From Acidithiobacillus caldus ATCC 51756 (GTDB lineage: Bacteria > Pseudomonadota > Gammaproteobacteria > Acidithiobacillales > Acidithiobacillaceae): a stretch of 64,000 nucleotides of DNA. The stretch spans positions 1,618,125 through 1,682,124 of the forward strand of contig NZ_CP005986.1 of the NCBI RefSeq assembly GCF_000175575.2, read 5' to 3'. The translations under genes and the position numbers were made by a program. Below, piece by piece: positions 8,767-64,000 of the stretch. The first letter of the stretch is position 1, and the number at the start of each line of letters is the position of its first letter. The notes below the pieces were generated by a model, which worked only from the letters and a program-made list of their open reading frames with translations, did no database searches and was not told the DNA's origin.

Positions 8767-9914
8767 ACATGCGCTATGTCGACGAGTTTCGGGACCCGAA
8801 AAAAGCATCCATTCTTGTGGAAGACATCCATCGTCTCGTTCAGCATGTTCCCCAAGCACGAAACAGGCCGCTACAACTCATGGAATTTTGTGGTGGACAC
8901 ACGCATACTATTTTTAAATATGGCATAGAACAAATGTTGCCGGAATCCGTGGAATTGGTACATGGGCCGGGTTGCCCGGTCTGCGTGCTGCCCATGGGAC
9001 GGGTAGATGACTGTGTGGCCATTGCCGAGTGTCCGGGGGTGATATTCACCACCTTTGGCGACGCCATGCGGGTTCCCGGCTCGCGCAAGAGCCTGCTGCA
9101 GGCCAAGGCCACGGGCGCTGATGTGCGGATGGTCTATTCGCCGCTGGATGCGCTGGCCATCGCCAGAGATAACCCGGACCGGGAAGTGGTGTTTTTCGGT
9201 CTCGGTTTTGAAACGACCATGCCGGCGACGGCGCTGACCATTCTCGCCGCAGAACGCCAGCGGGTGGCCAATTTTTCCGTATTCTGCAATCACATCACGA
9301 CGCTGCCCACCATCAAGGCCATTCTCGACTCCTCCGATATGGAGCTGGACGGCTTCCTGGGCCCCGGCCATGTCAGCATGGTGATCGGTACCCACCCCTA
9401 TCACTTTATCGCCGGACATTACCATAAACCCGTGGTGATCGCCGGGTTCGAGCCTCTGGATATTCTGCAGTCCCTGTGGATGCTGCTGAAACAACTGGCC
9501 GAGCGGCGCTGCGTGGTGGAAAACCAGTACGCGCGGATCGTTCCCGAAGCCGGTAATATCCAGGCGCTCGACGCGATCCAGCAGGTGTTCGAGATTCGCG
9601 AGTACTTCGAGTGGCGGGGGCTCGGTTCCATCGATCACTCCGGGGTCAGGATCCGCGATTGCTTTGCAGGCTACGACGCTGAGCGCCGCTTTGCCGTACC
9701 CAATCTGTCCATTGCTGACCCCAAGGCGTGTCAGTGTGGAGAGGTGCTCAAAGGGGTTATAAAACCCTGGGAGTGCAAAGTCTTTGGTAGAGCCTGCACG
9801 CCCGAAACGCCGCTGGGCTCTTTGATGGTTTCCTCGGAAGGGGCGTGTGCCGCCTATTTCAATTACGGAAAAATATCGGCAGAGATCCCCGCTGCCACAG
9901 AGGAGGTGTTCTGA
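8763..9914 (+). CDS. hypD: hydrogenase maturation protein HypD
   Basis: HypD holds the iron on which CN and CO ligands are assembled with HypC and HypE. A 383-residue protein with the family blocks F-C-G-G-H-T-H, H-G-P-G-C-P-V-C, G-F-E-T-T and the C-terminal cysteine set C-Q-C-G, W-E-C-x-V-F-G-x-A-C-T-P-E-T-P-L-G that binds a 4Fe-4S cluster. The ATG at 8763 overlaps the upstream stop; a second ATG at 8769 is possible. The first ~200 bp are AT-rich like the genes before it, the rest GC-rich like hypE, A and B, suggesting a recombination joint within the gene. Confidence 0.95.
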   Translation: MNMRYVDEFRDPKKASILVEDIHRLVQHVPQARNRPLQLMEFCGGHTHTIFKYGIEQMLPESVELVHGPGCPVCVLPMGRVDDCVAIAECPGVIFTTFGDAMRVPGSRKSLLQAKATGADVRMVYSPLDALAIARDNPDREVVFFGLGFETTMPATALTILAAERQRVANFSVFCNHITTLPTIKAILDSSDMELDGFLGPGHVSMVIGTHPYHFIAGHYHKPVVIAGFEPLDILQSLWMLLKQLAERRCVVENQYARIVPEAGNIQALDAIQQVFEIREYFEWRGLGSIDHSGVRIRDCFAGYDAERRFAVPNLSIADPKACQCGEVLKGVIKPWECKVFGRACTPETPLGSLMVSSEGACAAYFNYGKISAEIPAATEEVF

Positions 9915-36476: not shown

Positions 36477-37076
36477 CTATTTAGCGCCCATGGCCTTGTT
36501 GGTATTAACCTTTTCTCCTATCCTGATGTGAGGCGGACGCAAATGCCCTGTTTCAACCTCCCAAATCCAGCCACTAACCGTTACATGTTTGGGAATCAGC
36601 GGGTGGTTACGGACATACTCCACCTGCCGAGCGCAGGTTTCGTCGACGTCGCTGTACATTTTTATCCACTTGCCAAAAGCACCGGCCTTAATAGTTAACT
36701 CTGGCAAGTCAGGATCGAGTTGGATATTATCCAAGTCAATGCCTTTATCCTTCAAGGCCTTCACAATCGTATCCGTGTGAGCCGACATCATACCGCATTC
36801 GGTATGGTTGATGATTACAATTTCTTCTGTGCCAAAGAAGTTGCAGGTAAGCATGGCTGAGCGAATGGCATCATCGGTGATAAGTCCACCTGCGTTCCTG
36901 AACACATGTGCATCACCCTGATCTCCACGAATGCCGAGTGCTTCGTCCACTGGTAGGCGTTCGTCCATGCAAGCACATACCCAGAGCCGCCGGTTGTTGG
37001 GAATACCCATCTGGCGCCGTAAAGCCCATCGCTTATGACCTTCAAAATCGCTCTCAAGTTGTTGTTTCAAACTCAT
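36477..37076 (-). CDS. beta-carbonic anhydrase family protein of the CS2/COS hydrolase branch
   Basis: A 199-residue zinc enzyme. Zn ligands are C36 (C-M-D-E-R), H91 and C94 (H-T-E-C-G-M), with the D38/R40 dyad. Several blocks match, from memory, the Acidianus CS2 hydrolase more than ordinary carbonic anhydrases: G-I-P-N-N-R-R-L-W-V, R-N-A-G-G-x-x-T-D-D-A-I-R-S-A, N-F-F-G-T-x-E-I, Q-L-D-P-x-L-P, R-N-H-P-L-I-P-K and E-V-E-T. Such enzymes convert CS2 and COS to H2S and CO2 and do not hydrate CO2. Acidithiobacillus thiooxidans strains have homologues. A sigma-54 promoter lies upstream and AAGGAG precedes the ATG. A plain carbonic anhydrase is the alternative. Confidence 0.85.
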   Translation of the reverse strand: MSLKQQLESDFEGHKRWALRRQMGIPNNRRLWVCACMDERLPVDEALGIRGDQGDAHVFRNAGGLITDDAIRSAMLTCNFFGTEEIVIINHTECGMMSAHTDTIVKALKDKGIDLDNIQLDPDLPELTIKAGAFGKWIKMYSDVDETCARQVEYVRNHPLIPKHVTVSGWIWEVETGHLRPPHIRIGEKVNTNKAMGAK

Positions 37077-48823: not shown

Positions 48824-50584
48824 TCACGTAGCTCTTCGCTGGGGAGCGGCGCTTTGATCTGGGATATAAGGCTCCGGACGCGGGACGGTAAAAGGAAGCC
48901 GGATTTTGGAAATCTCCGTCTGCAGCACTTCCAGGGAATAGCCCTCGCCGTATCGATCCCCCACCGATCCTGATGCGTGACCGGTGAGCTGGTGGTGCAC
49001 GTCGCTGACGATTCCGGCATTCCGGCATAAGTCTTTGAAAGTATGCCGCAGGGAATGAAACACCACGGTTCGCGGAAAGCCCAGACGCTCGTGGACGTAC
49101 CGGTTGAACCATCGGCCGATCATTTCACTATCTGTATGCAAGGCTCCGCGACTGCGCAGCAGGGGCCAGAGCCGGGAATGCCCAGCCGCCTGGATGGCCT
49201 CGACATAGTCCAGGAATCCATGTTCGATCAGCTGCGGATGCAGGGGCACCGAGCGTAAGCTCTCGCTGTTTTTCGCACGGCGAATACGAAAATGGGGTAC
49301 CGGCTCCCGCTGTACGTCGTCTACCGTGAGGCGTCCCAGCTCGTCGAGCCGCGCACCTGTGAAAAGCCCCAGTAGGGGAATCCAGACCCTGGCGTAATAC
49401 CCTCCCCCTCCGTTGCCTTTGCTCTGCGCAAACAGACCCTCCGCCGAGAACAGTGTCTGCAACTGGGCCAAGGAAAAGGGCTCTCGGCCCGATTCCGACT
49501 GTACGCCAATCTTCAGAGCAAGGCGCTTGTAATCGAAACCGGTGAACGGATTGCTCGGCAGAAGCTCGTCTTTAACCGCCACCGAAAACAGCGCTCCCAT
49601 CAAGGTGCCTTTCTTTTCGAGGGTCTTGCCGCTATTGCCGCGACTATCTCGCTCGTGCCGGAGCCAAGCCGTGACATCTTGCTTGGACATGTCAGCAGGC
49701 AGCTTGCCCCGCAAAAACTGGGACAGAGACTGTACTAGGGTCTGCATCTCCCGGACCGTGCGGGGATGGCGGGGACAATCCCGGATCCAATACTCCAACA
49801 GCTCCTGCCAGCCGAAAGTCGGCTTGCCCTTTACCGCAATCTCCGGCACGGGGGGCGTCGGCACCTCTTCTCCCTTCTGGCGCCGCTTTAGATCTCGGGA
49901 CACGGCCCGGAAGGCGGCGGCAAATGGTTCATAGCCCTCTCCTAAGCGCCAGAAAGAGGTATCCCGGCCGGTAGCCAAGTGTAGGTGTTGGGCAATATAG
50001 GGTCTCAAGGCTTTTAGCAGGGCAACGTCCCCGACCAACCCCGCCGGCGGGAGCTTACCCACGAAAAAGGGATTCTCCCGCGGCATTAGCCAGCGCTCAT
50101 CCGTGTCTTTTCCGTCCGAGTCCGGGGCCAGGAGCGAGGCGACCAGCTCCCGATATTCCTGCTCGTCCTGCTGCAGGATCGTCGCATACATGAGTTGCGC
50201 AGCTTTTTCGATTTCTTCCGCAGAAAATGTTGGACGGGGTATTGGGCGGGCAACCTCGAGGATTTTCGCCTGCTGATCCGGCGGCAACTCATCAAAGATG
50301 TCTTTGAGAATCACTCCCTGCGGCTGACCCTGTTTCTCCAGCGCTGGAGCGACGATCCTTTCCCAGGCTGCCTTTTTAGCCGCGAGGAATTCGTCGACCT
50401 CCACCGCCACCCGCCGGGCTAGGCGCTCGGCTTCCTGGCGGTTGCCGGTGCCGAGGGAAAAGCGCAGATAGCCATTGGTGCCGACCTTTCTTGGGCCGGA
50501 GGCCAATGGGATTTCCTTACCGCGGAGGGAGTCCGGGAGCTTGCGAGAAAAGTGGTACAGCGACCCGCGACGGATAATGTACAT
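48824..50584 (-). CDS. large phage-type tyrosine recombinase (DUF6538 N-terminus)
   Basis: A 586-residue site-specific integrase. The N-terminal M-Y-I-I-R-R-G-S-L-Y-H-F-S-R-K-L-P is a DUF6538 segment common in such integrases, then a long linker and an SAM-like core-binding domain (~300-390). The catalytic domain has T-G-A-R-L-D-E-L (Arg), H-S-L-R-H-T-F (His-x-x-Arg), L-T-G-H-A-S-G-S-V (His) and R-Y-G-E-G-Y (Tyr). The ATG at 50584 is preferred over 50638. No phage or conjugation genes accompany it, so it may mark a decayed island. Confidence 0.88.
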   Translation of the reverse strand: MYIIRRGSLYHFSRKLPDSLRGKEIPLASGPRKVGTNGYLRFSLGTGNRQEAERLARRVAVEVDEFLAAKKAAWERIVAPALEKQGQPQGVILKDIFDELPPDQQAKILEVARPIPRPTFSAEEIEKAAQLMYATILQQDEQEYRELVASLLAPDSDGKDTDERWLMPRENPFFVGKLPPAGLVGDVALLKALRPYIAQHLHLATGRDTSFWRLGEGYEPFAAAFRAVSRDLKRRQKGEEVPTPPVPEIAVKGKPTFGWQELLEYWIRDCPRHPRTVREMQTLVQSLSQFLRGKLPADMSKQDVTAWLRHERDSRGNSGKTLEKKGTLMGALFSVAVKDELLPSNPFTGFDYKRLALKIGVQSESGREPFSLAQLQTLFSAEGLFAQSKGNGGGGYYARVWIPLLGLFTGARLDELGRLTVDDVQREPVPHFRIRRAKNSESLRSVPLHPQLIEHGFLDYVEAIQAAGHSRLWPLLRSRGALHTDSEMIGRWFNRYVHERLGFPRTVVFHSLRHTFKDLCRNAGIVSDVHHQLTGHASGSVGDRYGEGYSLEVLQTEISKIRLPFTVPRPEPYIPDQSAAPQRRAT

Positions 50585-51139
50585 GGGGGTATCGACCTCA
50601 CTTTTAGCTACACGTCTAGCCACAGTGTTTAGTCGCAACCCATTGAAATGAAAATTCCTTTTTTAACTATCAGGAACTTACCTATCATTGGCGGAGAGGG
50701 TGGGACACTCCACAAATAATATTTGTTCATTGTTTAACAGCAAGTTACAAAGAACCCGTTTTGGCTTTTTGTACCACCTCGTTGTACCAGAAATCCGGTC
50801 CAACACCGAAACGGAGTATAGTGCCCTTACGGCAATCATTTCAACTTCTGCGCTAAGACCTTGCACCGAGCAGGGCAAAAGAGCCCTGCTCGCCACCCCA
50901 TTCCCCATGTTGTATCATTGGCTATATGCAAAATCTGGTTGGAAACCTATGGCCTCAGTGTCCAAAACCCTGACGATACTTGCTGCACCATGGGTTGGAA
51001 GATGTAATGTCTGTGAGGAATGTGTGCAGAAGCTTTCTGGTTGGAGTGAGATGGTATACAGTTTGTGAAACTTTTACCTGAACTCTCTCCGGTTAGATAC
51101 CTCCTGTAGAGTTTTTCTGCCGAAGGGCCGGTCCAGACT
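50585..51139. other. region upstream of the integrase, no supported gene
   Basis: About 555 bp. Frames here lack coding signs. A strong hairpin GAGCAGGGC-aaaaga-GCCCTGCTC lies at 50868-50891 without a T-run. An attachment site is expected near an integrase start but I could not identify one. Confidence 0.4.
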
Positions 51140-52012: not shown

Positions 52013-53278
52013 TTATTTGTAGATTTCTTTTTCAGAGATTTTTTTTCGGTTGCCGTAAAGAAATATGCCCAGGGCTGTGACCATGACGCCGGCGATGATC
52101 GCAAACGCGCTGCGATAACCAATCCATGCGATAAAAACCCCCGAAATTAATGGGCCACAGGCATGTCCCGCATCCCATATGCTACCGAATACGCCCATGG
52201 CCGCACCGAAATCCCGGCACCTGACGAGATCTCCTAGCATCGCCGTCGTCGCCGGTGTCACCATGGCCGTGCCTAACCCAAATAACGTGCTTAGGCCGAG
52301 TAATGGCAGGAACTGCCCCATATGAGGGATTGTTGCCAGCACCGTTGCACACAGGCCGATCCCAGCGACGATAAAAGGCCCCCTCCCAACGCGGTCAGAG
52401 GCCATTCCAAAGACCGGGCGGAAGAGAATCGACGCTATCCCCTGAGCGCCAAATAAGAAGCCGATGTTCAGGATAGGGATATGCTGATCCAGCGCATACA
52501 GCGGTAGATACGCCTGCAGCGTACCTACGCCGAAATAGAGGGCGGCTTCTATCAGGCCCACCAGACGAATAGCCGGATCGCCGATGATCTGACGTACACC
52601 TTGGGCGGCTACGCGGAGGACTTCACCGGTAGACCACCGACCATCATGAACCAGCGCATCCCGTGGAAAAGGCAGGATCGTCAGAAGCGCAAGAAGGCCA
52701 ATGCCTCCCGAGACGACAAAGGCCGCGGCAAAACCCAAATGAGCGAGTGCAGCAGCGCCAATTACCGGTCCCAATACGACCCCGGCATTTTCGGCTGCCC
52801 CATAAAGACCGAGCCTGCGCCCACGCTGCGCCGGAAAGGACTTGGCTACCTGCGCCGATGCGGCGGGGGCGTAGAGCGCCGTGGATAGACCATGGAAAAA
52901 GCGAACGGCCAGCAATTGCGGCCAAACCCACACCAGCAGATACAAAAACGGCCCGACTGCGGTCACCATCATTCCGGCCAGCATCAACCGCCGAAAACCA
53001 AATTGATCCGCCAGACTACCTGCAGGCAGCTTGATAAAGATCCCGGTGATGGTCACCGCCGCGACCAATAGGCCGATGACCGCCGTTGGCGCCCCCAGAT
53101 GCCGGGCATAGAGGGAGGTCAGGGGACTGCGGATCATTTCGTAGCTTAGTCGCCCCCCAAAGCCCGCGCCGCACAAGAGCGGGAACCACCATGATGGGCC
53201 ATCCGCCAGAGGCGGCATGCGCGCGCCCTCTGACCTGCCGCCATCATCGGCCATAGGCGCACCTGGAAAAGCGATCAT
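52013..53278 (-). CDS. MFS transporter
   Basis: A ~421-residue transporter with 12 predicted helices, YfcJ/drug-efflux-like. Motif A appears as G-S-L-A-D-Q-F-G-F-R-R between helices 2 and 3 and again as G-M-A-S-D-R-V-G-R-G in the second half. The start is uncertain: ATG 53278 or 53254 fit; the open frame extends to 53404. The substrate is unknown. Confidence 0.8.
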   Translation of the reverse strand: MIAFPGAPMADDGGRSEGARMPPLADGPSWWFPLLCGAGFGGRLSYEMIRSPLTSLYARHLGAPTAVIGLLVAAVTITGIFIKLPAGSLADQFGFRRLMLAGMMVTAVGPFLYLLVWVWPQLLAVRFFHGLSTALYAPAASAQVAKSFPAQRGRRLGLYGAAENAGVVLGPVIGAAALAHLGFAAAFVVSGGIGLLALLTILPFPRDALVHDGRWSTGEVLRVAAQGVRQIIGDPAIRLVGLIEAALYFGVGTLQAYLPLYALDQHIPILNIGFLFGAQGIASILFRPVFGMASDRVGRGPFIVAGIGLCATVLATIPHMGQFLPLLGLSTLFGLGTAMVTPATTAMLGDLVRCRDFGAAMGVFGSIWDAGHACGPLISGVFIAWIGYRSAFAIIAGVMVTALGIFLYGNRKKISEKEIYK

Positions 53279-53682
53279 GCCTTGCCTGCGGCATAGAGGG
53301 TTTTCGCGGAAACTTCCGGTTGCCACCATAGCGGTATCTTTCGGCCCGTCCTTTGCCCATCGCCGACGAACCAGATGACATCCAGAATATCCCATTCGCG
53401 GCAAGACACCCGATAAGTGCTGACCAAGATGCTGCGTGGGCTAACGAGCTGACAGTTGAATGGGCGTTCCGGTAGCACATGCGCGGAAGCATTGGGACAG
53501 ATCCGCAGATGTACGCTATGTCCCACATATTCCTATGCCTTCCGCAATACATGCAGAGCTAGGGCATCGACCGATTGCTTGAGTGCCACGTCTTCGCCTC
53601 CCTCCCGATACAAAGGAACAGTTCGGAGCACCAAGGCTACCCACGGAGCAGCTCCAGACCGTTGGCATCTTCAACCACCTGG
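53279..53682. other. intergenic region between the MFS and pyrophosphatase genes
   Basis: About 400 bp, partly open in several frames, none with recognisable protein features. The first ~125 bp could be leader or 5' coding of the MFS gene. Confidence 0.35.
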
Positions 53683-54216
53683 TCAGGCATGCGTGGCATT
53701 GGCCCGCGCCAGATCAGCCAGGATCATGGTGCGCGCATCTTCCGTACCCTGCCAGCCTTGCAACCTTACCCATTTGCCCTGTTCCAACTCTTTGTGATGT
53801 TCAAAGAAATGGAAAATCTCGTCGCGTAGATAGCTGGGTAGGTCACCGATATCCTCTATATGATCATATCCACCAGCCACCTCGTGGTAAGGAACGGCGA
53901 TAATCTTGCAATCCGTACCATGCTCATCCTCCATAAACAGAACGCCGATGGGGCGCGTGCACATGATGGCGCCTGCCTGTACCGGCTGGGGGGATACCAC
54001 CAAAATATCGGTAGGGTCCCCATCTGTAGAAAGCGTATGGGGGATAAAGCCATAATTCGCCGGGTAGTGCATGGCGGTAAAAAGGAAGCGATCCACCACA
54101 ATCACTCCAGAGGATTTGTCGAGCTCATATTTGACGCTCGAACCCTGTGGAACCTCGATCACGGCGTTGACGTCAGCCGGCACATGCCGGCCAGTTGCTA
54201 TATTTTTCAGATTCAT
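53683..54216 (-). CDS. ppa: inorganic pyrophosphatase (family I)
   Basis: A 177-residue soluble Mg-dependent pyrophosphatase that removes PPi from biosynthesis. It has I-E-V-P-Q-G-S-x-x-K-Y-E, Y-P-A-N-Y-G-F-I-P and D-G-D-P-T-D-I-L-V, which supply the catalytic acidic residues, and a normal C-terminal K-W-V. An AAGGTGAATC site precedes the ATG. It stands alone next to the Hyf-like region. Confidence 0.95.
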   Translation of the reverse strand: MNLKNIATGRHVPADVNAVIEVPQGSSVKYELDKSSGVIVVDRFLFTAMHYPANYGFIPHTLSTDGDPTDILVVSPQPVQAGAIMCTRPIGVLFMEDEHGTDCKIIAVPYHEVAGGYDHIEDIGDLPSYLRDEIFHFFEHHKELEQGKWVRLQGWQGTEDARTMILADLARANATHA

Positions 54217-54404
54217 GATTCACCTTTCTGGATAAATGAAACCCGTATGCTTCGGCCGATTCCGGCTGACGCGAGGGCCGGTTAAAGGTCACCCCACTGG
54301 GGTTCGGCCAAGCGGAAGCCGTCGTCCTGGTATTGATAGCGCCGCTCCCATGGCCGAGGCGTGAGTTCCGATCGTGTCTGTTTCACCGCCGGCACCTGAT
54401 GCAG

Positions 54405-54734
54405 CGCTTCAGAAAGCCCACCGCGACCATATCCCCCATGAAGGCAAAAAAGAGGGGTAGGCAGTCAGCGCCGGAATCAGCAGCACCACAAACATCGGCA
54501 TGACAAAAGCGACAATCGGCGCGAAACGGAATACCCAGGTAGACTCTTCGGAAATGGCTTCATCCTTGCCGAATAGCTTTCAGATATCCCGGTAGGTCTG
54601 CCAGATGCAGGGTCCGCGTTTGCCCTGAATGATTTCTTCCAGGCGATGCAAAACGCCTTCGACCAAGGGCGCAAAATCAGCAAAAAAGCGACCTGCGCGA
54701 GGTTTAACGCGAAATGCGTCCACAGGGCTGTCAT
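54405..54734 (-). pseudogene. HyfC/NuoH-like N-terminal fragment, frameshifted
   Basis: From ATG 54734: M-T-A-L-W-T-H-F-A-L-N, then after a frameshift F-A-P-L-V-E-G-V-L-H-R-L-E-E-I-I-Q-G-K-R-G-P, Y-R-D-I, a TGA, K-L-F-G-K-D-E and, after another shift, P-L-F-F-A-F-M-G-D-M-V-A-V-G-F. This is the N-terminal part of a hydrogenase-4 membrane subunit (I-Q-x-R-x-G-P and Y-x-D-L-x-K-L). It is cut after the third helix and joined to an unrelated tail ending at 54282. A HyfC gene lies at the right edge of the window. Confidence 0.75.
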
Positions 54735-54750: not shown

Positions 54751-55275
54751 TCATGAGAAACCCACCTTGTAGCCCAGCACCGCCAGCACATCGCCAATGC
54801 CCATCAGTCCCAGCGCCCATTTCCAGCGTGCGCCTTGTACCCAGTAACCGAGCACCAGACCCACCGCCATCAGGGTGAGATTGGCAGCAAAAAGTGGCAG
54901 ATAAATCCACTGCGGAAAGAGTACGGCCAGCGTCAGCGGTATCGCCGCGCCGCCGAAACTGCTGGTGGTGGCGAGGCTCGCCATAAACCAGGAATTACGC
55001 AGGGTTTGCAAGCCCAGATCGCTTTTTTGCAGGGCGTGCGCGGAAGCCATATTCAGCTGCTTCGCCATCCTGACCAGATCGCTGCGTAGTCCCGCATATT
55101 CCGCCATCCATAAGGGCAAAAAGCCCGATGCCGAGGTGATGATGCCAATGCGAAAGGCCTGCCAGACATCGATACCACCGGTCATCATCTTCTGGCTGGC
55201 CAGCACCAGCGCCGTGCAGGTTCCGTCGGCGAGACCGAGCACTATGGGGAATATCTCCCGACGAGTGATATTCAT
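54751..55275 (-). CDS. VIT1/CCC1-like membrane protein
   Basis: A 174-residue membrane protein with about five helices. E-I-F-P-I-V-L-G-L-A-D-G-T-C-T-A-L-V-L and M-A-E-Y-A-G-L-R resemble the G-L-x-D-G and E-Y helices of VIT/CCC1 iron-manganese transporters. Its ATG overlaps the DUF211 stop (ATGA). VIT-like and DUF211 genes occur as pairs in archaea and some bacteria. Divalent-metal transport is inferred. Confidence 0.6.
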   Translation of the reverse strand: MNITRREIFPIVLGLADGTCTALVLASQKMMTGGIDVWQAFRIGIITSASGFLPLWMAEYAGLRSDLVRMAKQLNMASAHALQKSDLGLQTLRNSWFMASLATTSSFGGAAIPLTLAVLFPQWIYLPLFAANLTLMAVGLVLGYWVQGARWKWALGLMGIGDVLAVLGYKVGFS

Positions 55276-55559
55276 TTGCTGGCCCGTCGCCGGTAATCGA
55301 CCATGCGATCACCGACGACAATTTCCTCGACACCATGCACGGCAGCACCACTTTTTTCGATGGCCGCAAGCAGACCGGCGTAATCGATATTGTCACCTTC
55401 CACATTGATCAGTGTGCCGACCGTTTCCTGATCGACTTCTTCCACCGAAATATTAAAACCCTCCACACCGCTGACTTTTTCGATAGCGGCGGCAATATCG
55501 AACAAACTGGGCTGAGCAAAAGCCTTATCGACATCCAGTACAAGCCTTCTGATACGCAT
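55272..55559 (-). CDS. DUF211 protein
   Basis: A 95-residue ferredoxin-fold protein of the DUF211 family: M-R-I-R-R-L-V-L-D-V, V-E-G-F-N-I-S-V-E-E-V-D, I-E-G-D-N-I-D-Y (as V-E-G-D-N-I-D-Y) and S-I-D-E-like V-E-E-I-V-V-G. DUF211 proteins form large oligomers of unknown function. Coupled to the VIT-like gene. Confidence 0.8.
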   Translation of the reverse strand: MRIRRLVLDVDKAFAQPSLFDIAAAIEKVSGVEGFNISVEEVDQETVGTLINVEGDNIDYAGLLAAIEKSGAAVHGVEEIVVGDRMVDYRRRASK

Positions 55560-55581: not shown

Positions 55582-55851
55582 CTAATTTAGCTGTCCCATG
55601 CGAACGGCACGTACCGCCCACTCGATATCTTCGACAATATTTTCAGGTTCACAAGGTGCCCGATAATGACCAATCAACAGGCAGGGTCCAGCAAAGCCTG
55701 GGCCGGACAGTACGGAATCCTTCAAAGGCACAACATGGGCTGATCCGTTGTGGCATATCCACAGCGCTACGCCGATACGCGGGTATTCACCGATTTTACG
55801 GACGACGCGCTCTGCCAGTGCATCCACTGACTGTTTAAGTCGAATGACCAT
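55582..55851 (-). CDS. hypothetical protein
   Basis: An 89-residue protein with start ATG 55851 (M-V-I-R-L-K-Q-S-V-D). It overlaps the preceding zinc ribbon-HEAT gene by 17 bp. Visible blocks are R-V-V-R-K-I-G-E-Y-P and P-C-L-L-I-G-H-Y-R. No known family recognised. It belongs to the run of small coupled genes after crcB. Confidence 0.6.
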   Translation of the reverse strand: MVIRLKQSVDALAERVVRKIGEYPRIGVALWICHNGSAHVVPLKDSVLSGPGFAGPCLLIGHYRAPCEPENIVEDIEWAVRAVRMGQLN

Positions 55852-56245
55852 AGTGATCTGCTCCCTTCTTTGCCAGCAGTTCTCCTGCAGCAACACGTAT
55901 TGCATGGGCTTCATGTTGCTGTAATTGCCGTAAGGCAGCGGTTTTCTCGGCGCCGTCCGGTAATTTTGCGATGGCGGCGACTATCGCCATCCCCTGCACG
56001 ACATCAATCGGCCAGCCCATAGCGCATTCCGCCAGTGGCCCTGCGGCAGCTTCCCGTCCATGATTCTGTAGGCTGAGAATAGCTCCCATCCGTACTTCGG
56101 AATGGGGATTTTTCAGCGCCCAGATTAAGCGGTCGTAATATGGCGTGTGGCGTTCCCAGTCCTCAATATCCCGCCCACAGGCCGGACAAACGATCGCACC
56201 AATGGGAATCTCCGCATAACAGAGTGGGCAGTAATGATGGTTCAT
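55835..56245 (-). CDS. zinc-ribbon protein with HEAT-like repeats
   Basis: A 136-residue protein. An N-terminal zinc ribbon C-P-L-C..C-P-A-C-G is followed by helical HEAT/PBS-lyase-like repeats (H-S-E-V-R-M-G-A-I-L-S-L; A-I-R-V-A-A-G-E-L-L). ATG 56245 overlaps the DUF190 stop. A protein-contact role is inferred; the partner is unknown. Confidence 0.65.
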   Translation of the reverse strand: MNHHYCPLCYAEIPIGAIVCPACGRDIEDWERHTPYYDRLIWALKNPHSEVRMGAILSLQNHGREAAAGPLAECAMGWPIDVVQGMAIVAAIAKLPDGAEKTAALRQLQQHEAHAIRVAAGELLAKKGADHYGHST

Positions 56246-56559
56246 TCGCAACCGCAATCGGCTTCCCAGCGCAGAATGTGGCCCGGTGGCACCAATTCCC
56301 GCAGGTGCGGCATTACCGCATCCACGGTCTCCGGTTCGTCAAAAAATTCCAGTACCAGCGGCAAATGCACATTGAGGCGCAGAACATCGTCGGCATGCAC
56401 TACCCCTTTGCTACCAAAGCCCGCGATACCGCGAAAGGCGGTAACGCCATGGACCTTGTATTGGTCGTGAAGCATGCGGAAGATCTCCTCCATGAGATTG
56501 TGCCCGCCATGCTTGTCACCTTCCTTAATATAAACGCGTACTACGGATACGGTCGTCAT
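56242..56559 (-). CDS. DUF190 protein
   Basis: A 105-residue PII-like-fold protein of family DUF190: V-R-V-Y-I-K-E-G-D-K-H, L-M-E-E-I-F-R-M-L, V-F-R-G-I-A-G-F-G (as A-F-R-G-I-A-G-F-G-S-K-G). The start at 56559 lies 10 bp after the crcB stop; the longer frame from 56673 runs inside crcB. DUF190 genes often accompany crcB. Confidence 0.85.
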   Translation of the reverse strand: MTTVSVVRVYIKEGDKHGGHNLMEEIFRMLHDQYKVHGVTAFRGIAGFGSKGVVHADDVLRLNVHLPLVLEFFDEPETVDAVMPHLRELVPPGHILRWEADCGCE

Positions 56560-56569
56560 GATGCACCTC

Positions 56570-56947
56570 TCAGATACTGCGGGAAATCCAGGCCCCGGCA
56601 AAAGCGGCACCGACGCACAGAAACAGCGACGTGAACATATATAGCAGACCCTTGACCGCCTCGCCATTTTCAAAAAGCACCAAGGTTTCTAGGGAAAATG
56701 TCGAAAAAGTGGTGTAAGCACCCAGGCCGCCTGTGAGCATGCCCGTGCGCAATTCCGGACTCACAGAAATCCGTTCCAATGTCTCAAAAAACAGAAAACC
56801 CATGATAAAACAGCCCAGAACATTGATACTCAGGGTGGCCCAGGGGAAGTCGCGGCCGAATACCGTCTGCACCAGCAGGGTCTGTCCATAACGCGCCCAG
56901 GCGCCGAGTACGGCGAACAAGGCAATGAAGCCGAAAGTGGCGAACAT
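56570..56947 (-). CDS. crcB: fluoride channel CrcB/Fluc
   Basis: A 125-residue four-helix protein that forms a dual-topology dimeric fluoride channel. It has G-A-W-A-R-Y near the start, N-V-L-G-C-F, and the signature G-G-L-G-A-Y-T-T-F-S-T-F with its Phe box. It follows hyfB by 16 bp on the same strand. Fluoride export matters in acid, where HF enters cells. No fluoride riboswitch was seen in the short gap. Confidence 0.92.
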   Translation of the reverse strand: MFATFGFIALFAVLGAWARYGQTLLVQTVFGRDFPWATLSINVLGCFIMGFLFFETLERISVSPELRTGMLTGGLGAYTTFSTFSLETLVLFENGEAVKGLLYMFTSLFLCVGAAFAGAWISRSI

Positions 56948-56963
56948 CTCTACTCCTTATACA

Positions 56964-58925
56964 TTACAAATAAAAGACACTAGCAAAAATAACGATCAAC
57001 AATATTCCGATATAAGTGAGGTAGGCATTGAGTGAGCCATTCTGCAAAACCAGACCGATCCGGTCGCTGAGCTTCTGTACCAGGCGCACCGCCGGGCGAA
57101 ATAACCAGGGTCCGAAGACGGGCGCTTGACTGTAGTTAAACTGTAGAGTGTGCACGAAATATTCGCGTTCCGTATGCTGTTTTCGCGTGTTAGTGCCGGG
57201 TCGGTACACAAAGCTGTAAAACTCCCGCAACGCGTTGGAAAACGCCAGCGCGGTGATAGCGTTCTCCGCCGGTATACGGCGCAGGCCGTGACCCCATACC
57301 GGTACCCGGCGGCGACCGTGACGACGATGGCTCCAGCCGAGCAGACCCAAGGGAATCAGCGCCAGCAAGAGCCCCATGAGCAGCAGCAGGGGCGGCGAAA
57401 TGAAGGCGAAATGGGGCGTGAGTGGCACCAGAATCGGGCCACGCACCATGGCGGCTATCGTCGCGGGGTTTGCCGGCCAGTTGTCCCGGGCCAGCGCCGC
57501 CAATGTCCAGGGCAGCGCCACGGCATAAGCCAGCACCAGCAGTCCCAGGCCCAGAACCGGCCAGCGTCCCGTGACCTTGCCCGGATTTTCCTCACGCCCC
57601 AGCAGGCCGATGCCGAAGACTTTGACCATGGTCGCCAGGGCGATGGCCGCCGTCAGGGCCAGACCGGCACCCCCCAGCGCCAGGCTTACCTGCGCGGCCG
57701 AAGAGGTCAGATGGAAACCCTGAAAAATGGTCTGGAAGAGATACCATTCACTGGCAAAGCCCGCCATGGGTGGCATGGCGGCGAGGCTCATGGCCCCGAA
57801 CAGGGCGCCGATGCCCAGGGTCCAGGGAGCGAGAGCCAGTACCCGGCTCTGGGCGATCTGGTAGTTGCCCCGCACTGCGGCCACCCGATCGGCGCTGAGC
57901 ATCATCACTCCTTTGGCCAGGCTGTGACCGCCGAGGTGAATCAGACCTACCGTCCATGCCAGAGTCATCAGCATGATCAGGCCGTCGGCCCGGAAGAGGG
58001 AGGCGGCACCCAGAGCGACCACCGCCAGCCCCGCATTTTCCGCTGTGGAAAAGGCCAGCAGGCGCCGCCAGTCTTCCTGTTGAAAGGCGTAGAGAATGGC
58101 GAGGATGGCGGATATCGTCCCCAGGGCCACCAACAGAATGCCCACCCCAGTGGCGGCACTGACCGGCAGCCAGTCGAGCATGGCCCGTCCCAGGGCAAAA
58201 TACGCGACGTTCAGCACCATGCCGGAAAGCAGCGCCCCGGAGGCGCCGCTGCCACTCCCGTAAGCACCCGGATACCATTCATAAAAGGGTAGAATACCGA
58301 GTTTGGCGCCGAAGCCGATAATGAACAGTACCGCCACCCCGAAGGCCGCCCCGCCGTAAGTGGCCCAGCTCGCCGCCCAGCCCGTAAAGTCCGTATCCTG
58401 CGCACCGAGCAGGACCAGGCAGAGCAACAGTGCCACCGCACCGATTTCCAGCAGGGCCAGCATATAAAGACTGGCTTGCCCACCGCATTGGGTTTCCTGC
58501 AGGCCGTCGGCGAGGAGTATGACCGCCCCGCCAAAGCTCAGAAACTCCCAGGCAATCAGGAAAGAGATGCCTTCTTGCAGGCCGGCAACGCCCAGGCTGC
58601 CCAGCAGGGCGACGGCCGCACCCGCCATCCAGATGGCGGGTTTTTGGGCGCGGCTGGGAGAAAGAAAAGCCGCCAGCGCCGCCAGTCCACCCCAGAACAG
58701 TAACCAGGCCGCAGCGGGCTGTAACTGCCAGGTCACGGCAATATCGCCTAGCGACCACATCGCACCGGTCGCCGAACCACCCGGCAGACTGGCGGCGCTG
58801 CCGATGAGCGTGGCCAGCGTACCCAAAATCAGGATCAACCGCGCCAGCCAACCCTGCCGCAAGACACCGAGGGCGATAGTCAGCACAAAAAGGCTGGCGG
58901 CGACACAGAAACTATCCAGCACCAT
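56964..58925 (-). CDS. hyfB: hydrogenase-4-like membrane subunit HyfB (NuoL/antiporter type)
   Basis: A 653-residue membrane protein with about 15-16 helices, a member of the Mrp-antiporter/NuoL family. Features include E-F-L-S-F (glutamate of the proton path), G-F-G-A-K-L-G-I-L-P-F-Y-E-W (lysine helix) and S-T-A-E-N-A-G. ATG 58925 follows GGAGG and overlaps the small-subunit gene end by 14 bp. It would pump protons or sodium coupled to the electron-transfer arm. Last gene of the hyf run. Confidence 0.88.
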   Translation of the reverse strand: MVLDSFCVAASLFVLTIALGVLRQGWLARLILILGTLATLIGSAASLPGGSATGAMWSLGDIAVTWQLQPAAAWLLFWGGLAALAAFLSPSRAQKPAIWMAGAAVALLGSLGVAGLQEGISFLIAWEFLSFGGAVILLADGLQETQCGGQASLYMLALLEIGAVALLLCLVLLGAQDTDFTGWAASWATYGGAAFGVAVLFIIGFGAKLGILPFYEWYPGAYGSGSGASGALLSGMVLNVAYFALGRAMLDWLPVSAATGVGILLVALGTISAILAILYAFQQEDWRRLLAFSTAENAGLAVVALGAASLFRADGLIMLMTLAWTVGLIHLGGHSLAKGVMMLSADRVAAVRGNYQIAQSRVLALAPWTLGIGALFGAMSLAAMPPMAGFASEWYLFQTIFQGFHLTSSAAQVSLALGGAGLALTAAIALATMVKVFGIGLLGREENPGKVTGRWPVLGLGLLVLAYAVALPWTLAALARDNWPANPATIAAMVRGPILVPLTPHFAFISPPLLLLMGLLLALIPLGLLGWSHRRHGRRRVPVWGHGLRRIPAENAITALAFSNALREFYSFVYRPGTNTRKQHTEREYFVHTLQFNYSQAPVFGPWLFRPAVRLVQKLSDRIGLVLQNGSLNAYLTYIGILLIVIFASVFYL

Positions 58926-59706
58926 AACGTCCTCCCTGGACCCGTTGCGGCATCCGTTCCAGCAGCAGGAGCAGTGCGTGGATGAGCGCCGCCGGATTGG
59001 GCGGGCATCCGGGCAACCAGACATCTACCGGCAAAAGGGCGTTGAGTCCCGAGCCACCCGCGTAGCCGCCATCCATGGGCGCGCCGGAGACGGCGCAGGT
59101 GCCCGTCGCCAGCACCATGCGCGGTTCCGGCATGGCCTCCCAAGTGGCCAGCAGCGGTCCGTGCATGGGCGCTGTCACCGGACCCGTGACCATCAGCAAA
59201 TCGGCAAAGCGCGGCGAGGGCGTAAAGAAGATACCCAGGCGGTGCAGGTTATAAAAGGGATTGTCGAGGGCGCCGATCTCGGATTCGCAACCATTGCAGG
59301 AGCCCGCATCCACATGGCGGATGTGCAGGCTGCGGCGCAGGCTCCGCGCCACCCGCTTGCCCAGGTCCTGTCCTACGCGGCTGTCCAGCGCCTCTTTCCA
59401 GAGCAGATCTTCGCGCCGCCGCACGCCGAAAGCCCAGTCGTAAGAGCTGGTCATCGCCCCTTCGGGACAGTCTTCCACACAGCGCTGGCAGACGATGCAG
59501 CGTCCATAATCGACCTCCGCTTTCCCCGCGTTCACCTGGATAGCACCCGTAGGGCAAGCCGCTACACAGGCATCACAGCCCGTACGGCAGGCTGCGGGGC
59601 CCCAGCGCGGCATGCCCAGCACGCCATCCTGCCCGTCGGGACCGCGCTGCGGCCAGCGGGTGGCGGCTTTGCCTGCCTTCAATCCTGTCCAGGTCCATAC
59701 CGGCAT
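58912..59706 (-). CDS. HyfH-HyfI fusion: 2x[4Fe-4S] ferredoxin + small subunit
   Basis: A 264-residue fusion. Residues ~40-85 carry two 4Fe-4S motifs (C-R-T-G-C-D-A-C-V-A-A-C-P and C-I-V-C-Q-R-C-V-E-D-C-P), the HyfH/NuoI part. Residues ~130-260 are the small subunit (HyfI/NuoB) with C-N-G-C-E, T-G-T-C-A and P-G-C-P-P-N-P, ligands of one 4Fe-4S cluster. In E. coli these are separate genes. The gene sits between hyfG and hyfB and transfers electrons toward the large subunit. Confidence 0.88.
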   Translation of the reverse strand: MPVWTWTGLKAGKAATRWPQRGPDGQDGVLGMPRWGPAACRTGCDACVAACPTGAIQVNAGKAEVDYGRCIVCQRCVEDCPEGAMTSSYDWAFGVRRREDLLWKEALDSRVGQDLGKRVARSLRRSLHIRHVDAGSCNGCESEIGALDNPFYNLHRLGIFFTPSPRFADLLMVTGPVTAPMHGPLLATWEAMPEPRMVLATGTCAVSGAPMDGGYAGGSGLNALLPVDVWLPGCPPNPAALIHALLLLLERMPQRVQGGRYGAG

Positions 59707-59715
59707 TCTGTCCTC

Positions 59716-61209
59716 CTAACGGTCGCAACCGGCGATGGTGAGGCCGAAACTGGCCTCATTGATGGCGTAGTCCATCATGTTGGTACCATGCACCGTAAGC
59801 GGAAAGACTCGCCAGTTGGAAAATGAGGGTGATTTGATCTTCACCCGTTTGAGGCGGCCATCACGGATCCGCACGGAGTAATACAGAGAACCGCGCGGGG
59901 ACTCCGTCCAGCCCAGCCCTTCCTGCTCTCCATTCGGCACAGCGAATGGCGCACGTACCGGCCCCGCCTGGAGATGCCCGGAAGCCTGCACCAGCAAGGC
60001 GATGGCTTCACGTAAAGACTCGGCGCGGACTTCACTGCGGGCCATGGCATCGCCTTTCGCGCGCACCGGTACAGCAAAGCGCAGATGATGGTAGGCCGCG
60101 TAGGGATGGTCGCGGCGCAAGTCCCGGTCGAGGCCGGAGGCGCGCGCCACCGGCCCGGTCGCCCCCTGGTCGAAAGCGGCTTCTTTCGACAATATGCCGG
60201 TACCCATGAGGCGATCCAGATGGCTGGCGGTCTGCTGCAAACGCGTCAGATACGCTTCGCCCTCGTCGATGATGTTTTCCAGCGCGCTCGCCAGGTGCTC
60301 CGCGGGGAGGTCGCGGCGCAGCCCGCCCACAGTCAGCAGGCTGCGCAGGAAGCGCGATCCGGTCAGTTGTCCGGCCACCTGCTTCACCCGTTCTTCCAGC
60401 AGAAAACCCGTCGCCGAGCCCACTTTCAGCGTCGTCGTCTTGGCCAGCAGACCAAAATAGTGGAAGTGATTGTAGAGGCGCTCCAGTTCCGCGAGGATCA
60501 CCCGCAGCAGTTGGGCCCGTGGCGGCACTTCGATGCCCCAGGCCGCCTCCACCGCCTGACAATAGGTAAGGGCATGGCAAACGCTGCCGACGCCCGACAC
60601 CCGCTCCGCCAGAAAGACCGCGGCATCTGCCTGCTGGCCCACGAAACGCGCCTCCAGCCCACGATGTTTGAAAAAGAGCCGGGGATGGTAGTGGAGGATG
60701 GCCTCGCCGATGTAGGAATAATGGAATTCTCCCGTCTCCACCACATCGGCCCGTATTGGCCCCCAGTAGAGGTCCTGCACCTGATCGCCCTGTACTTCCG
60801 GCATGGTGGGGGGCATATATTCGCCGCTCAGGCGGCCCTCCGCCCCCGCCCGACCCAGGGGCGGGCGCGGCAGCGAAAAACCCTCGTGGATCACCAGTGG
60901 AAAGGGCTCGGGATGATCCGTAAACGTCAGACCACCCAGATCCTGCATCTCCCGCTCATACCAGCCGAGCAGAGGCACGATGGCCGCCAGCGACGGCAGC
61001 GTTTCCTCGCCACGGATCTCCAGCAGCAGGAAAGGCACGCGGTTGCCTTGACTGATCAGATAGCGCACCACGCATTGACCTTCTACCCAGTCGTGCCAGG
61101 CCATCTGAAAACGCATTCCCGCCGTGACGCAGTCCTGTGCCACCGCGGGTAAATCAGCGGCACGGAGCGGGCGCAACGCGCAATCGTTGTAAGTCGTGGC
61201 CGCACTCAT
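59716..61209 (-). CDS. hyfG: Hyf-like large subunit lacking nickel-binding cysteines
   Basis: A 497-residue fusion of a NuoC-like N-terminal region and a NuoD/[NiFe] large-subunit-like domain. Where hydrogenases have R-x-C-G-x-C, this has R-V-S-G-V-G-S-V-C-H (203-212). The C-terminal D-P-C-x-x-C is replaced by S-F-G-L-T-I-A-G-C-D-R (487-497). Without the four Cys ligands no Ni-Fe site can form, as in complex I and in energy-converting-hydrogenase-related (Ehr) complexes. ATG 61209 overlaps the hyfF stop (ATGA). The substrate is unknown. Confidence 0.88.
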   Translation of the reverse strand: MSAATTYNDCALRPLRAADLPAVAQDCVTAGMRFQMAWHDWVEGQCVVRYLISQGNRVPFLLLEIRGEETLPSLAAIVPLLGWYEREMQDLGGLTFTDHPEPFPLVIHEGFSLPRPPLGRAGAEGRLSGEYMPPTMPEVQGDQVQDLYWGPIRADVVETGEFHYSYIGEAILHYHPRLFFKHRGLEARFVGQQADAAVFLAERVSGVGSVCHALTYCQAVEAAWGIEVPPRAQLLRVILAELERLYNHFHYFGLLAKTTTLKVGSATGFLLEERVKQVAGQLTGSRFLRSLLTVGGLRRDLPAEHLASALENIIDEGEAYLTRLQQTASHLDRLMGTGILSKEAAFDQGATGPVARASGLDRDLRRDHPYAAYHHLRFAVPVRAKGDAMARSEVRAESLREAIALLVQASGHLQAGPVRAPFAVPNGEQEGLGWTESPRGSLYYSVRIRDGRLKRVKIKSPSFSNWRVFPLTVHGTNMMDYAINEASFGLTIAGCDR

Positions 61210-62666
61210 GGTTGCACCACAAAAGTGTGCTGAAAGAAAGTCCACAGCCCTTCCGGCCACCATAGGCCGAGCACCAGAATGGCCACAAAGGCCAGCCACA
61301 TGGGCAAGGTATTCCAGACGGACAGCTCCAGGGTCGGCTCCCCACCAGGCTCCGGTTCCGGCCCCCAGATCATGCGCCGGAAGTGATTCATGAAGGCGAC
61401 GAAAATAAGGATGAGCAATGTCGCCATCAACCACACCGCCCAAGGGTTGGGGCTCAATATGCCGCCACGCAGGATGGTGATTTCCGAGAGAAAAAGCCCG
61501 AAGGGCGGTGCCCCGGTAATGGCCACCGCGCCCAACAACCAGAGTGTGCCGCTGACCGGATAATAACGCAGCACCCGCCGCATGTTGCTCATGGATTTGG
61601 TGCCATAGGCGCGCATCATGTTGCCGGCGCCAAAGAACATCATGGGCTTGGTCAGGGAGTGGTTGATCATGTGATACATGGCCCCGGCGAAGGCCATGGG
61701 ACCGCCGAAACCAAAGCCGATGGCCAGCACACCCATGTGCTCCAGGGAGGAATAGGCCAGCATGCGCTTGGCTCCTTCCTGACGGACGATGAACAGTCCC
61801 GCCACCAGGAGGGAGATTACCCCCAGCACCAGCAAGGCCGTATGCCCCATCACGCCATAGCCGCCGCTATCGACGATGGACAGAAAGCGGTAAATGCCGA
61901 GCAGGGCGATGTTCAGCAGGGACCCGGAGAGCATGGCGGAAACGGGTGCCGGCCCTTCGCTGTGGGCGTCGGGCAACCAGGTGTGCATGGGCGCCAGACC
62001 CACCTTGGTGCCGAAACCCACCAGTACCAGCAGGAAGGCTAGAAAGAGCAGCGTCTCCGGCATCCGTGGTGCCACCGCCCGCAGGTTGCCCCAGGTCAGG
62101 GCGTAAGTCGGCCCCAGGGTGAAGGTCCCGCCCCAGTAGAAGAGAATGATGCCCAGCAGGGCCAGCGCCAGACCGGCAGACACCAGGATCAGATATTTCC
62201 ACGCCGCCTCGATACACTCCGCCTCACGCTCGAAGCCCACCAGAAAGGCGCTGACGATGGTGGTGAAGTCGATGGCAATCCAGAAAATGCCGGGATTGTT
62301 CATCAATGGCGCAATCAGCATGGTCAACGCAAAGCCGACCTGCAAGGCATAATATTTGTGGAGACGGGGCTTTTCCTCGGGAAGCAGACGCATATAGCCG
62401 ATGGCATAGAGAGACGCCAGCAGATAGACCAGCCCGACGCAGAACAGCACCCAGGCCCCCAGCGGCGTCAGCAGAATATAGCCTGCGCCGGTCACCAGCG
62501 CCTTGCCGGGCGCCGCCACCAGAATGGCCAGCGTAAGGCCAAAAACGGCCACCGATGACGTCAGATTCAGATACTCCGCCCAGTGCGGGCGGCGTATGGC
62601 CATAATCAGCACAATAGCTACCGCGGGGACAATCCACAGGGCAGCAATGAGCGCCGTAAAATCCAT
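61206..62666 (-). CDS. hyfF: hydrogenase-4-like membrane subunit HyfF (NuoM/N type)
   Basis: A 486-residue antiporter-like subunit with ~14 helices. Conserved features: G-F-G-T-K-V-G-L-A-P-M-H-T-W-L-P-D-A-H-S-E-G-P (lysine helix), Y-S-S-L-E-H-M-G and H-S-L-T-K. It would form one of two proton-pumping modules with HyfB. Overlaps hyfG by 4 bp. Confidence 0.9.
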   Translation of the reverse strand: MDFTALIAALWIVPAVAIVLIMAIRRPHWAEYLNLTSSVAVFGLTLAILVAAPGKALVTGAGYILLTPLGAWVLFCVGLVYLLASLYAIGYMRLLPEEKPRLHKYYALQVGFALTMLIAPLMNNPGIFWIAIDFTTIVSAFLVGFEREAECIEAAWKYLILVSAGLALALLGIILFYWGGTFTLGPTYALTWGNLRAVAPRMPETLLFLAFLLVLVGFGTKVGLAPMHTWLPDAHSEGPAPVSAMLSGSLLNIALLGIYRFLSIVDSGGYGVMGHTALLVLGVISLLVAGLFIVRQEGAKRMLAYSSLEHMGVLAIGFGFGGPMAFAGAMYHMINHSLTKPMMFFGAGNMMRAYGTKSMSNMRRVLRYYPVSGTLWLLGAVAITGAPPFGLFLSEITILRGGILSPNPWAVWLMATLLILIFVAFMNHFRRMIWGPEPEPGGEPTLELSVWNTLPMWLAFVAILVLGLWWPEGLWTFFQHTFVVQP

Positions 62667-62667
62667 C

Positions 62668-63348
62668 TCAGCCCACCAGTTTTTGCAGGCCGCGACTGCT
62701 GGTCGTCCCGGCGTGGGCCTGCAGGAGGCGCACCAGCATGCCGAAGGTCATGACAATGATCAGCAGATCGAAGATGATCACCAGTTCCATCAGGACCGGC
62801 ATACCGGGCACCAGAATCTGCGACCCCAGAAATATCCCGTTCTCGATCACCAGCAAGCCGAGGATGTGACTGATGGCCTCCGAGCGCAGGATCATCATCA
62901 AAAAGCCGATCAGCTTGAGGCTGAACATGCAGGTCAGGGCCAGCACCGCAATGTTGTCGGTCAGGTGCAGCGCCACCCCCAGTTGCCGTGCGACCTCGTA
63001 GGAGAAAATCACCAGTACCGCACCGAGGATCATGCTGGAGGAGGGCTTCAGCAATGGCGTAAATTCGCGCTGAACCCCCAAGCGATCGACCAGACGCAGC
63101 ACCAGATAGGGCAGCAGCGACCCGCGAAAAAGCGCCGTCAGGATGGCGATGACATAAAGCTCCGGGTAGTGCCCGTAATAACCGATGGATGCGGAAATCG
63201 CGGCAATGGTCCAGGACTCCGCGGCAAAGGCATAGACGTGATTCTTGAGCCAGTACGACGCCAGCATCACAAAAGACAGCACCAGCGCAATGATGGCCAG
63301 CAGACTGAAAAGAGAGGTGGCCAGGGGGCTCAGATGAAAGATCAGCAT
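62668..63348 (-). CDS. hyfE: hydrogenase-4-like membrane subunit HyfE (NuoK type)
   Basis: A 226-residue membrane protein with about six helices. The C-terminal half (I-L-G-L-L-V-I-E-N-G-I-F-L) has the N-G helix and glutamate characteristic of HyfE/NuoK-like subunits. Its stop is one base before the hyfF ATG. Length agrees with HyfE (~215-220). Confidence 0.88.
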   Translation of the reverse strand: MLIFHLSPLATSLFSLLAIIALVLSFVMLASYWLKNHVYAFAAESWTIAAISASIGYYGHYPELYVIAILTALFRGSLLPYLVLRLVDRLGVQREFTPLLKPSSSMILGAVLVIFSYEVARQLGVALHLTDNIAVLALTCMFSLKLIGFLMMILRSEAISHILGLLVIENGIFLGSQILVPGMPVLMELVIIFDLLIIVMTFGMLVRLLQAHAGTTSSRGLQKLVG

Positions 63349-63357
63349 CGCAGCCTC

Positions 63358-64000
63358 CTAGAGTTGGTCGGCCACAATGGCCAGCACCGCAAAGAGAAAA
63401 GACAGTGCCAGGGGCTCCTGATAACGGTAGAAGCGCAGCCGCGATTGCAGGGTATCCACTGCCACCATCGCCAGCCCCACCGCCCCGTACTTGGCCAGAA
63501 TAATCAGCATGGCCAACAGCACCGAGCCAAAACTTCCCGTAGCGGACAATCCCCACGGAAAGAAAAAGACGTTAAGGAAAATGGTGTAGAGCAAAAACTG
63601 CTTCATCCAGCTTGCCCATTTCAGCAGGGCCAGCAGCGGCCCGGAGTATTCCAGAATCCGCGCCTCGTCGATCATGTAGATCTCGTAGGGGATGGTGGAG
63701 TGGATGGGCAGGCGGTCGGTCTCCACGGTCAGCAGAATGAAAAAGGCGAAGATCAGGAAGATATGCGCCGGGCTCCAGTAGGCCACCGGATCTTGCGCCA
63801 GCAGGTGATTGGCGACGAAGGGCAGCATGGAGTGATCGAGAAAGGTGATGCCCACAAAGACCAGAATCAGGGTCGGCTCGGCGAGGATGGCGAGCATCAC
63901 CGCGCGGCTGGAACCCAGTCCGCCGAAGGGTTGCCCGGTATCCAGTCCGGCCAGCAGGATGAAAAAGCCGCCGAGGGTCAGGATGAGGCCGCCACCGAGA
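63358..64000 (-). CDS. hyfC: hydrogenase-4-like membrane subunit HyfC (NuoH type), partial
   Basis: The C-terminal ~214 codons of a NuoH-like subunit; the start is beyond the right edge. L-A-G-L-D-T-G-Q-P-F-G-G-L-G-S-S-R and I-H-S-T-I-P-Y-E-I-Y-M-I-D-E-A-R-I-L-E-Y-S-G-P are diagnostic of HyfC/HycD. It holds the heel of the membrane arm and contacts the electron-transfer subunits. It reads into hyfE with a 9-bp gap. A decayed N-terminal fragment of a similar gene is at 54405-54734. Confidence 0.88.
   Translation of the reverse strand, partial: LGGGLILTLGGFFILLAGLDTGQPFGGLGSSRAVMLAILAEPTLILVFVGITFLDHSMLPFVANHLLAQDPVAYWSPAHIFLIFAFFILLTVETDRLPIHSTIPYEIYMIDEARILEYSGPLLALLKWASWMKQFLLYTIFLNVFFFPWGLSATGSFGSVLLAMLIILAKYGAVGLAMVAVDTLQSRLRFYRYQEPLALSFLFAVLAIVADQL

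Follow-up and report, generated by a model that had tools for sequence, protein, structure and literature searches.

A fluoride-riboswitch-linked, nickel-free Hyf-type complex of Acidithiobacillus caldus as a candidate Ehr-like ion pump

The closest described systems to the complex analysed here are the Hyc and Hyf complexes of Escherichia coli, respiratory complex I and the energy-converting hydrogenase-related (Ehr) complexes (PMC6349859; Sulfobacillus, PMC4378227; Nitrospira, PMC10284858). In the portions of the three Ehr papers available to us, these complexes have group-4-like and antiporter-like subunits, lack the [NiFe] ligand motifs and have no established function, and fluoride is not mentioned in connection with them. 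"Formate hydrogen lyase" genes behind the crcB motif, the fluoride riboswitch, were noted in 2010 in the paper first describing the motif (PMC2864571), and a 2024 review takes the riboswitch-linked "formate hydrogenlyase" at face value (PMC11139923). According to the same review, pyrophosphatase belongs to a type of enzyme that is sensitive to fluoride and frequently accompanies fluoride riboswitches, and antiporters come next after fluoride exporters among the riboswitch-controlled genes. The genome paper of A. caldus placed a hyfBCEFG cluster, hup/hyp genes and a beta-carbonic anhydrase gene on a genomic island, and guessed that the enzyme encoded by the cluster evolves H2 to balance pH and CO2 (PMC3826726).

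We analysed a window of 64,000 nucleotides of A. caldus ATCC 51756 (NZ_CP005986.1, positions 1,618,125 to 1,682,124). A hyf operon and a presumed fluoride gene set lie on its minus strand in the order listed below; positions beyond the window end are given as their equivalents in window numbering.

64354-64417 (equivalent; G000:C1:1682478-1682541), minus: fluoride riboswitch RF01734, 52.9 bits against a cut-off of 34
63358..64000, extending beyond the window to the equivalent of 64299, minus: hyfC, NuoH-like membrane subunit at the head of the operon (Pfam NADHdh)
62668..63348, minus: hyfE, NuoK-like membrane subunit (NCBIfam hydrogenase 4 membrane subunit, below cut-off)
61206..62666, minus: hyfF, antiporter-like subunit with conserved K221 and E395 (Pfam Proton_antipo_M; NCBIfam hydrogenase 4 subunit F)
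59716..61209, minus: hyfG, large subunit without [NiFe] ligands, 497 amino acids, with the motifs ERVSGVG and FGLTIAGCDR
58912..59706, minus: HyfH-like two-[4Fe-4S] ferredoxin domain fused to a HyfI/NuoB-like small subunit (Pfam Fer4, Oxidored_q6)
56964..58925, minus: hyfB, antiporter-like subunit (NCBIfam hydrogenase 4 subunit B); start likely at 58925, inside a longer ORF reaching 59024
56570..56947, minus: crcB, Fluc fluoride channel (TIGR00494 above cut-off; Pfam CRCB)
56242..56559, minus: DUF190 protein (Pfam DUF190); start picked by homologue length
55835-56257, minus: small HEAT/zinc-ribbon gene, role not assigned
55582-55914, minus: small gene without assignment
55272-55559, minus: small DUF211 gene, role not assigned
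54370..54734, minus: frameshifted remnant of a second hyfC, the leading gene of the F2 complex described below (tblastn)
53683..54216, minus: inorganic pyrophosphatase (Pfam PF00719)
52013..53404, minus: MFS transporter, end of the presumed fluoride gene set (Pfam MFS_1)

The window also contains hypF and hypD at 5-12 kb, along with genes of HypE-like and HypB-like type, as well as a carbonic anhydrase gene at 36477-37076, and thus appears to be the island of the genome paper. Similar phage-type integrase genes flank the operon region (window 48824-50638; L006:6608-8041 and 8844-9028), and tRNA genes lie on the far side, the layout that a mobile island would be expected to have.

HyfG comprises a NuoC-like and a NuoD/hydrogenase-large-subunit domain (Pfam). 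Its predicted structure (mean pLDDT of 86) was closest to E. coli HycE (Z of 42.0), and Foldseek and VIA returned the expected HycE/NuoCD fold and nothing else. However, the four cysteines that bind nickel in E. coli HycE (C241, C244, C531 and C534) align with S, G, T and G in HyfG, in agreement with the original prediction that both cysteine motifs had been lost. None of the 81 HyfG homologues carried a cysteine at any of these positions, which were occupied by S (81/81), G/D/A, T/S and G (81/81), whereas five of five true hydrogenases showed the full CCCC set. A sequencing error hiding cysteines, the refutation foreseen at the outset, is thereby ruled out. Since the HyfG family is conserved at ~54-93% identity over three phyla, the ligand loss is not due to chance. 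The HyfG C-terminus (...AGCDR) coincides with the point where mature HycE ends after tail cleavage, and only 3 residues follow the last ligand position, compared to 35 in HycE; there is thus no tail for a HycI-type maturation protease. We consider the missing nickel site well supported.

The quinone site of complex I is not retained either. HyfG has V and G in place of the quinone-site His and Tyr of NuoD. The loss of both the [NiFe] site and this pair leaves HyfG without a recognised electron-acceptor site, and a search of the neighbouring gene clusters turned up no conserved gene for a redox partner beside the operon; both points speak against the redox-driven pump discussed below. Four basic residues (R153, K181, K262 and K276) were invariant in the HyfG proteins of the clade and missing from true hydrogenases. 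They may form an anion site that is worth testing, although they prove nothing.

The rest of the complex is intact, as originally predicted: HyfC, HyfE, HyfF, HyfB and the fused HyfH/HyfI-type Fe-S protein are all present. In contrast to the lost nickel site, the 12 Fe-S cysteines of the fused protein were invariant in all 79 aligned sequences, indicating an intact Fe-S relay. Lys, Glu and His residues were conserved in HyfB, HyfF, HyfC and HyfE, and those of HyfB (E160, K241 and E426, in ORF numbering) and HyfF (K221 and E395) include the residues whose aligned counterparts are the key Lys and Glu in the antiporter subunits of complex I. The sequence features of an ion-translocating pump, membrane Lys/Glu plus an Fe-S relay, are therefore in place. 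Compared to complex I, with which it shares the fold of NuoCD and the membrane subunits, the complex differs in the replaced quinone-site residues and in having no NuoE, NuoF or NuoG in the operon.

The most informative element lies outside the window. An RF01734 aptamer was found ~55 bp upstream of the hyfC start, in the 5' leader, and 354 bp past the window end; for this reason an Rfam search of the window alone gave no match, and the riboswitch and its control were missed originally. With nine Rfam hits, mostly of close relatives, as the basis of a covariance model, we found a riboswitch directly 5' of hyfC in 65 of 66 homologous loci with sufficient upstream DNA. The sole exception, L061, had no clear riboswitch; the match at 4256-4332 was very weak, at 14.3 bits. 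Because the model came mostly from close relatives, distant loci were rechecked with the Rfam model itself, and eight of eight were positive at the same place before hyfC (Thiomonas, Dyella, Mesorhizobium, an Acidobacteriaceae bacterium, Nitrobacter, Fulvimonas, a Rhizobiales bacterium and Ancylobacter). Among 40 relatives, RF01734 lay ~3.2 kb upstream of hyfG in all 16 Acidithiobacillaceae genomes with an orthologue (76-100% identity, window genome included), and none was seen near the ~30%-identity paralogues, with coordinates compared by eye in both cases. Likewise by eye, no riboswitch was seen near 64 other Hyf-type loci, true hydrogenases and nickel-free ones, in 299 Pseudomonadota genomes; where a genome had both, they were far apart (closest, ~58 kb). 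The window's own genome was the only one of the 299 with a fluoride-type gene, indicating that the clade is uncommon. The prediction that fluoride controls the hyfC operon is well supported by this conserved arrangement.

The surrounding genes resemble other fluoride-riboswitch gene sets, with crcB, pyrophosphatase and enolase nearby. crcB adjoined the hyf operon in 47 of 82 loci and the DUF190 gene in 42 of 82. In several phyla, genes for dynamin-like GTPases, as judged by eye from sequence, recurred next to the hyf operon, crcB and enolase (L039, L045, L048, L062, L065 and L084). Some loci were dense fluoride islands with at least four riboswitches in <18 kb (L085, L076, L030, L077 and L079), which control not only enolase and crcB but also uncharacterised genes. 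At the second fluoride riboswitch of the A. caldus genome (L093, G000:C1:2010502-2010563), a transposase-like gene stands between the riboswitch and a second crcB and DUF190 pair.

The 81 homologues came from Proteobacteria, Acidobacteria and Actinobacteria. In a FastTree tree, the 44 fluoride-type sequences grouped together as a single, long-branched clade (support 0.74), and a second nickel-free group (F2) lay next to it. In other Acidithiobacillaceae the F2 complex is intact, ~9.6 kb downstream of the first (L095, L096 and L097 are F2-related loci), and in L013, L015, L016 and L017 it stands behind its own fluoride riboswitch. Just a frameshifted hyfC piece is left in the window, matching residues 1-127 of the L013 gene at 65% identity in two frames (tblastn). 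A third nickel-free group includes the core hyf cluster of the same genome (L007:3109-11463; G000:C1 about 1440100-1448460), adjoined by a CbbO-like gene and a LysR regulator. The core cluster has also lost the nickel ligands but is only ~31% identical, has a short HyfI without the ferredoxin domain and has no riboswitch. A transposase gene (L007:6564-7622) interrupts its hyfE, and the cluster may therefore be broken in this strain. Across the tree, the full ligand set was confined to true hydrogenases; outside them, a single cysteine was seen in L103 alone.

These results speak against the annotation and the guess of the genome paper (PMC3826726), by which the complex would be a formate hydrogenlyase or group 4 [NiFe] hydrogenase that balances pH and CO2. 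The complex does share the subunit set B, C, E, F, G, H and I and the HyfG fold with E. coli Hyc/Hyf, HycE is the closest fold, and hyp genes and a carbonic anhydrase share the island. However, E. coli Hyc/Hyf has four nickel ligands, the C-terminal tail, HyfA, HycI and FdhF, all of which are absent here. FdhF, HycI and HypB were found in none of 80 loci by tblastn, a search that covered the loci themselves, and a distant FdhF partner might lie elsewhere in the genome; in three true hydrogenase loci used as a control, HycI was found in three and FdhF in two. A true formate hydrogenlyase was rejected on this basis. A CO2/pH role through the carbonic anhydrase was also rejected, since >15 kb separate that gene from the operon and it is the other Hyf copy that is linked to carbon fixation. 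Taken together, we regard a hydrogenase as extremely improbable, and the earlier objection to a hydrogenase-4 annotation was justified.

Group-4-type subunits, lost nickel ligands, an intact Fe-S relay and antiporter-like subunits place the complex as Ehr-like, as had been proposed, an assignment based on shared features. That reading was right about the class but incomplete, as fluoride-riboswitch control and crcB linkage were absent from it; nor did it mention the strand, the fusion to a ferredoxin domain or the DUF190 gene. The complex would be a fluoride-specific branch, differing from the described Ehr complexes in its fluoride riboswitch, crcB and the ferredoxin domain fused to the small subunit.

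How might such a complex act against fluoride? HF has a pKa of about 3.2. At low pH it would cross the membrane and release H+ and F- inside, and CrcB would let F- out; since HF enters and F- leaves through CrcB, the cycle would import protons, and repeated entry and exit would amount to a proton leak. Fluoride would switch on the hyf complex, electrons would enter via the fused ferredoxin-like domain, and their flow would drive the export of H+ (or another cation) through HyfB, HyfF, HyfE and HyfC. Fluoride entry as a weak acid is indeed described as lowering internal pH (PMC11139923). We lean, with slightly better than even confidence, towards an Ehr/complex-I-like ion pump that is nickel-free, inducible by fluoride and directed against the entry of protons and fluoride as HF. 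About half of the loci, however, have no crcB adjoining the operon. Mesorhizobium and Nitrobacter are examples of hosts that are not known to be acidophiles, which also counts against the pump. The redox-driven ion pump of an acidophile in the original prediction remains plausible, but its setting has to be widened, as the complex occurs in three phyla and is not limited to a single genus or phylum.

Pumping might also proceed without redox chemistry: under fluoride stress the membrane arm would act as an Mrp-like cation/H+ antiporter that swaps cations for protons, leaving the hydrophilic arm only a structural or regulatory part. The conserved Lys and Glu of the antiporter-like subunits, a HyfG that keeps no known acceptor site and the frequency of Na+/H+ antiporters among fluoride-riboswitch genes (PMC11139923) are consistent with such a silent arm, but the invariant Fe-S cysteines point to selection for electron transfer, and we consider it unlikely. 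More doubtful still is a general-energy Ehr complex whose induction along with the fluoride genes is incidental; such a complex might, for instance, resist fluoride and stand in for a respiratory step that is inhibited. Related nickel-free Hyf complexes without riboswitches are widespread, and the fluoride-inhibited enzymes enolase and pyrophosphatase are neighbours; however, the riboswitch link of the fluoride-type clade is specific and nearly universal.

The clade-specific basic residues of HyfG bear on two further readings. In one, the old active-site pocket binds an anion and the complex transports fluoride or HF directly, or is gated by fluoride. The strict fluoride control predicted from the riboswitch would suit this role, but membrane subunits of cation/proton type and a CrcB that already exports F- make it improbable. 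In the other, to which we give equally little credence, the former active site was rebuilt around the Arg and Lys residues, and electron flow through an Fe-S redox machine directly drives, or is gated by, fluoride/HF transport, which would be a new functional class in the complex I superfamily.

Fluoride control is the decisive new fact about the nickel-free hyf operon, and together with the crcB linkage it gives the complex a physiological setting. A literature search, with most subscription papers outside its coverage and thus weak evidence of novelty, found no paper tying a nickel-free Hyf complex to fluoride. The sources that we found on fluoride riboswitches treat the formate hydrogenlyase genes as real, whereas the riboswitch-controlled enzyme of the fluoride-type clade is no hydrogenlyase; with no catalytic site and no neighbouring formate dehydrogenase, the published explanation of a shift to fermentation does not fit this clade. 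Two open questions meet here, namely the function of Ehr complexes and the reason why fluoride riboswitches control "formate hydrogenlyase". The A. caldus cluster formerly read as an H2-evolving enzyme receives a corrected annotation, and one branch of the Ehr complexes gains a testable trigger, fluoride, and a testable role, ion balance under HF stress.
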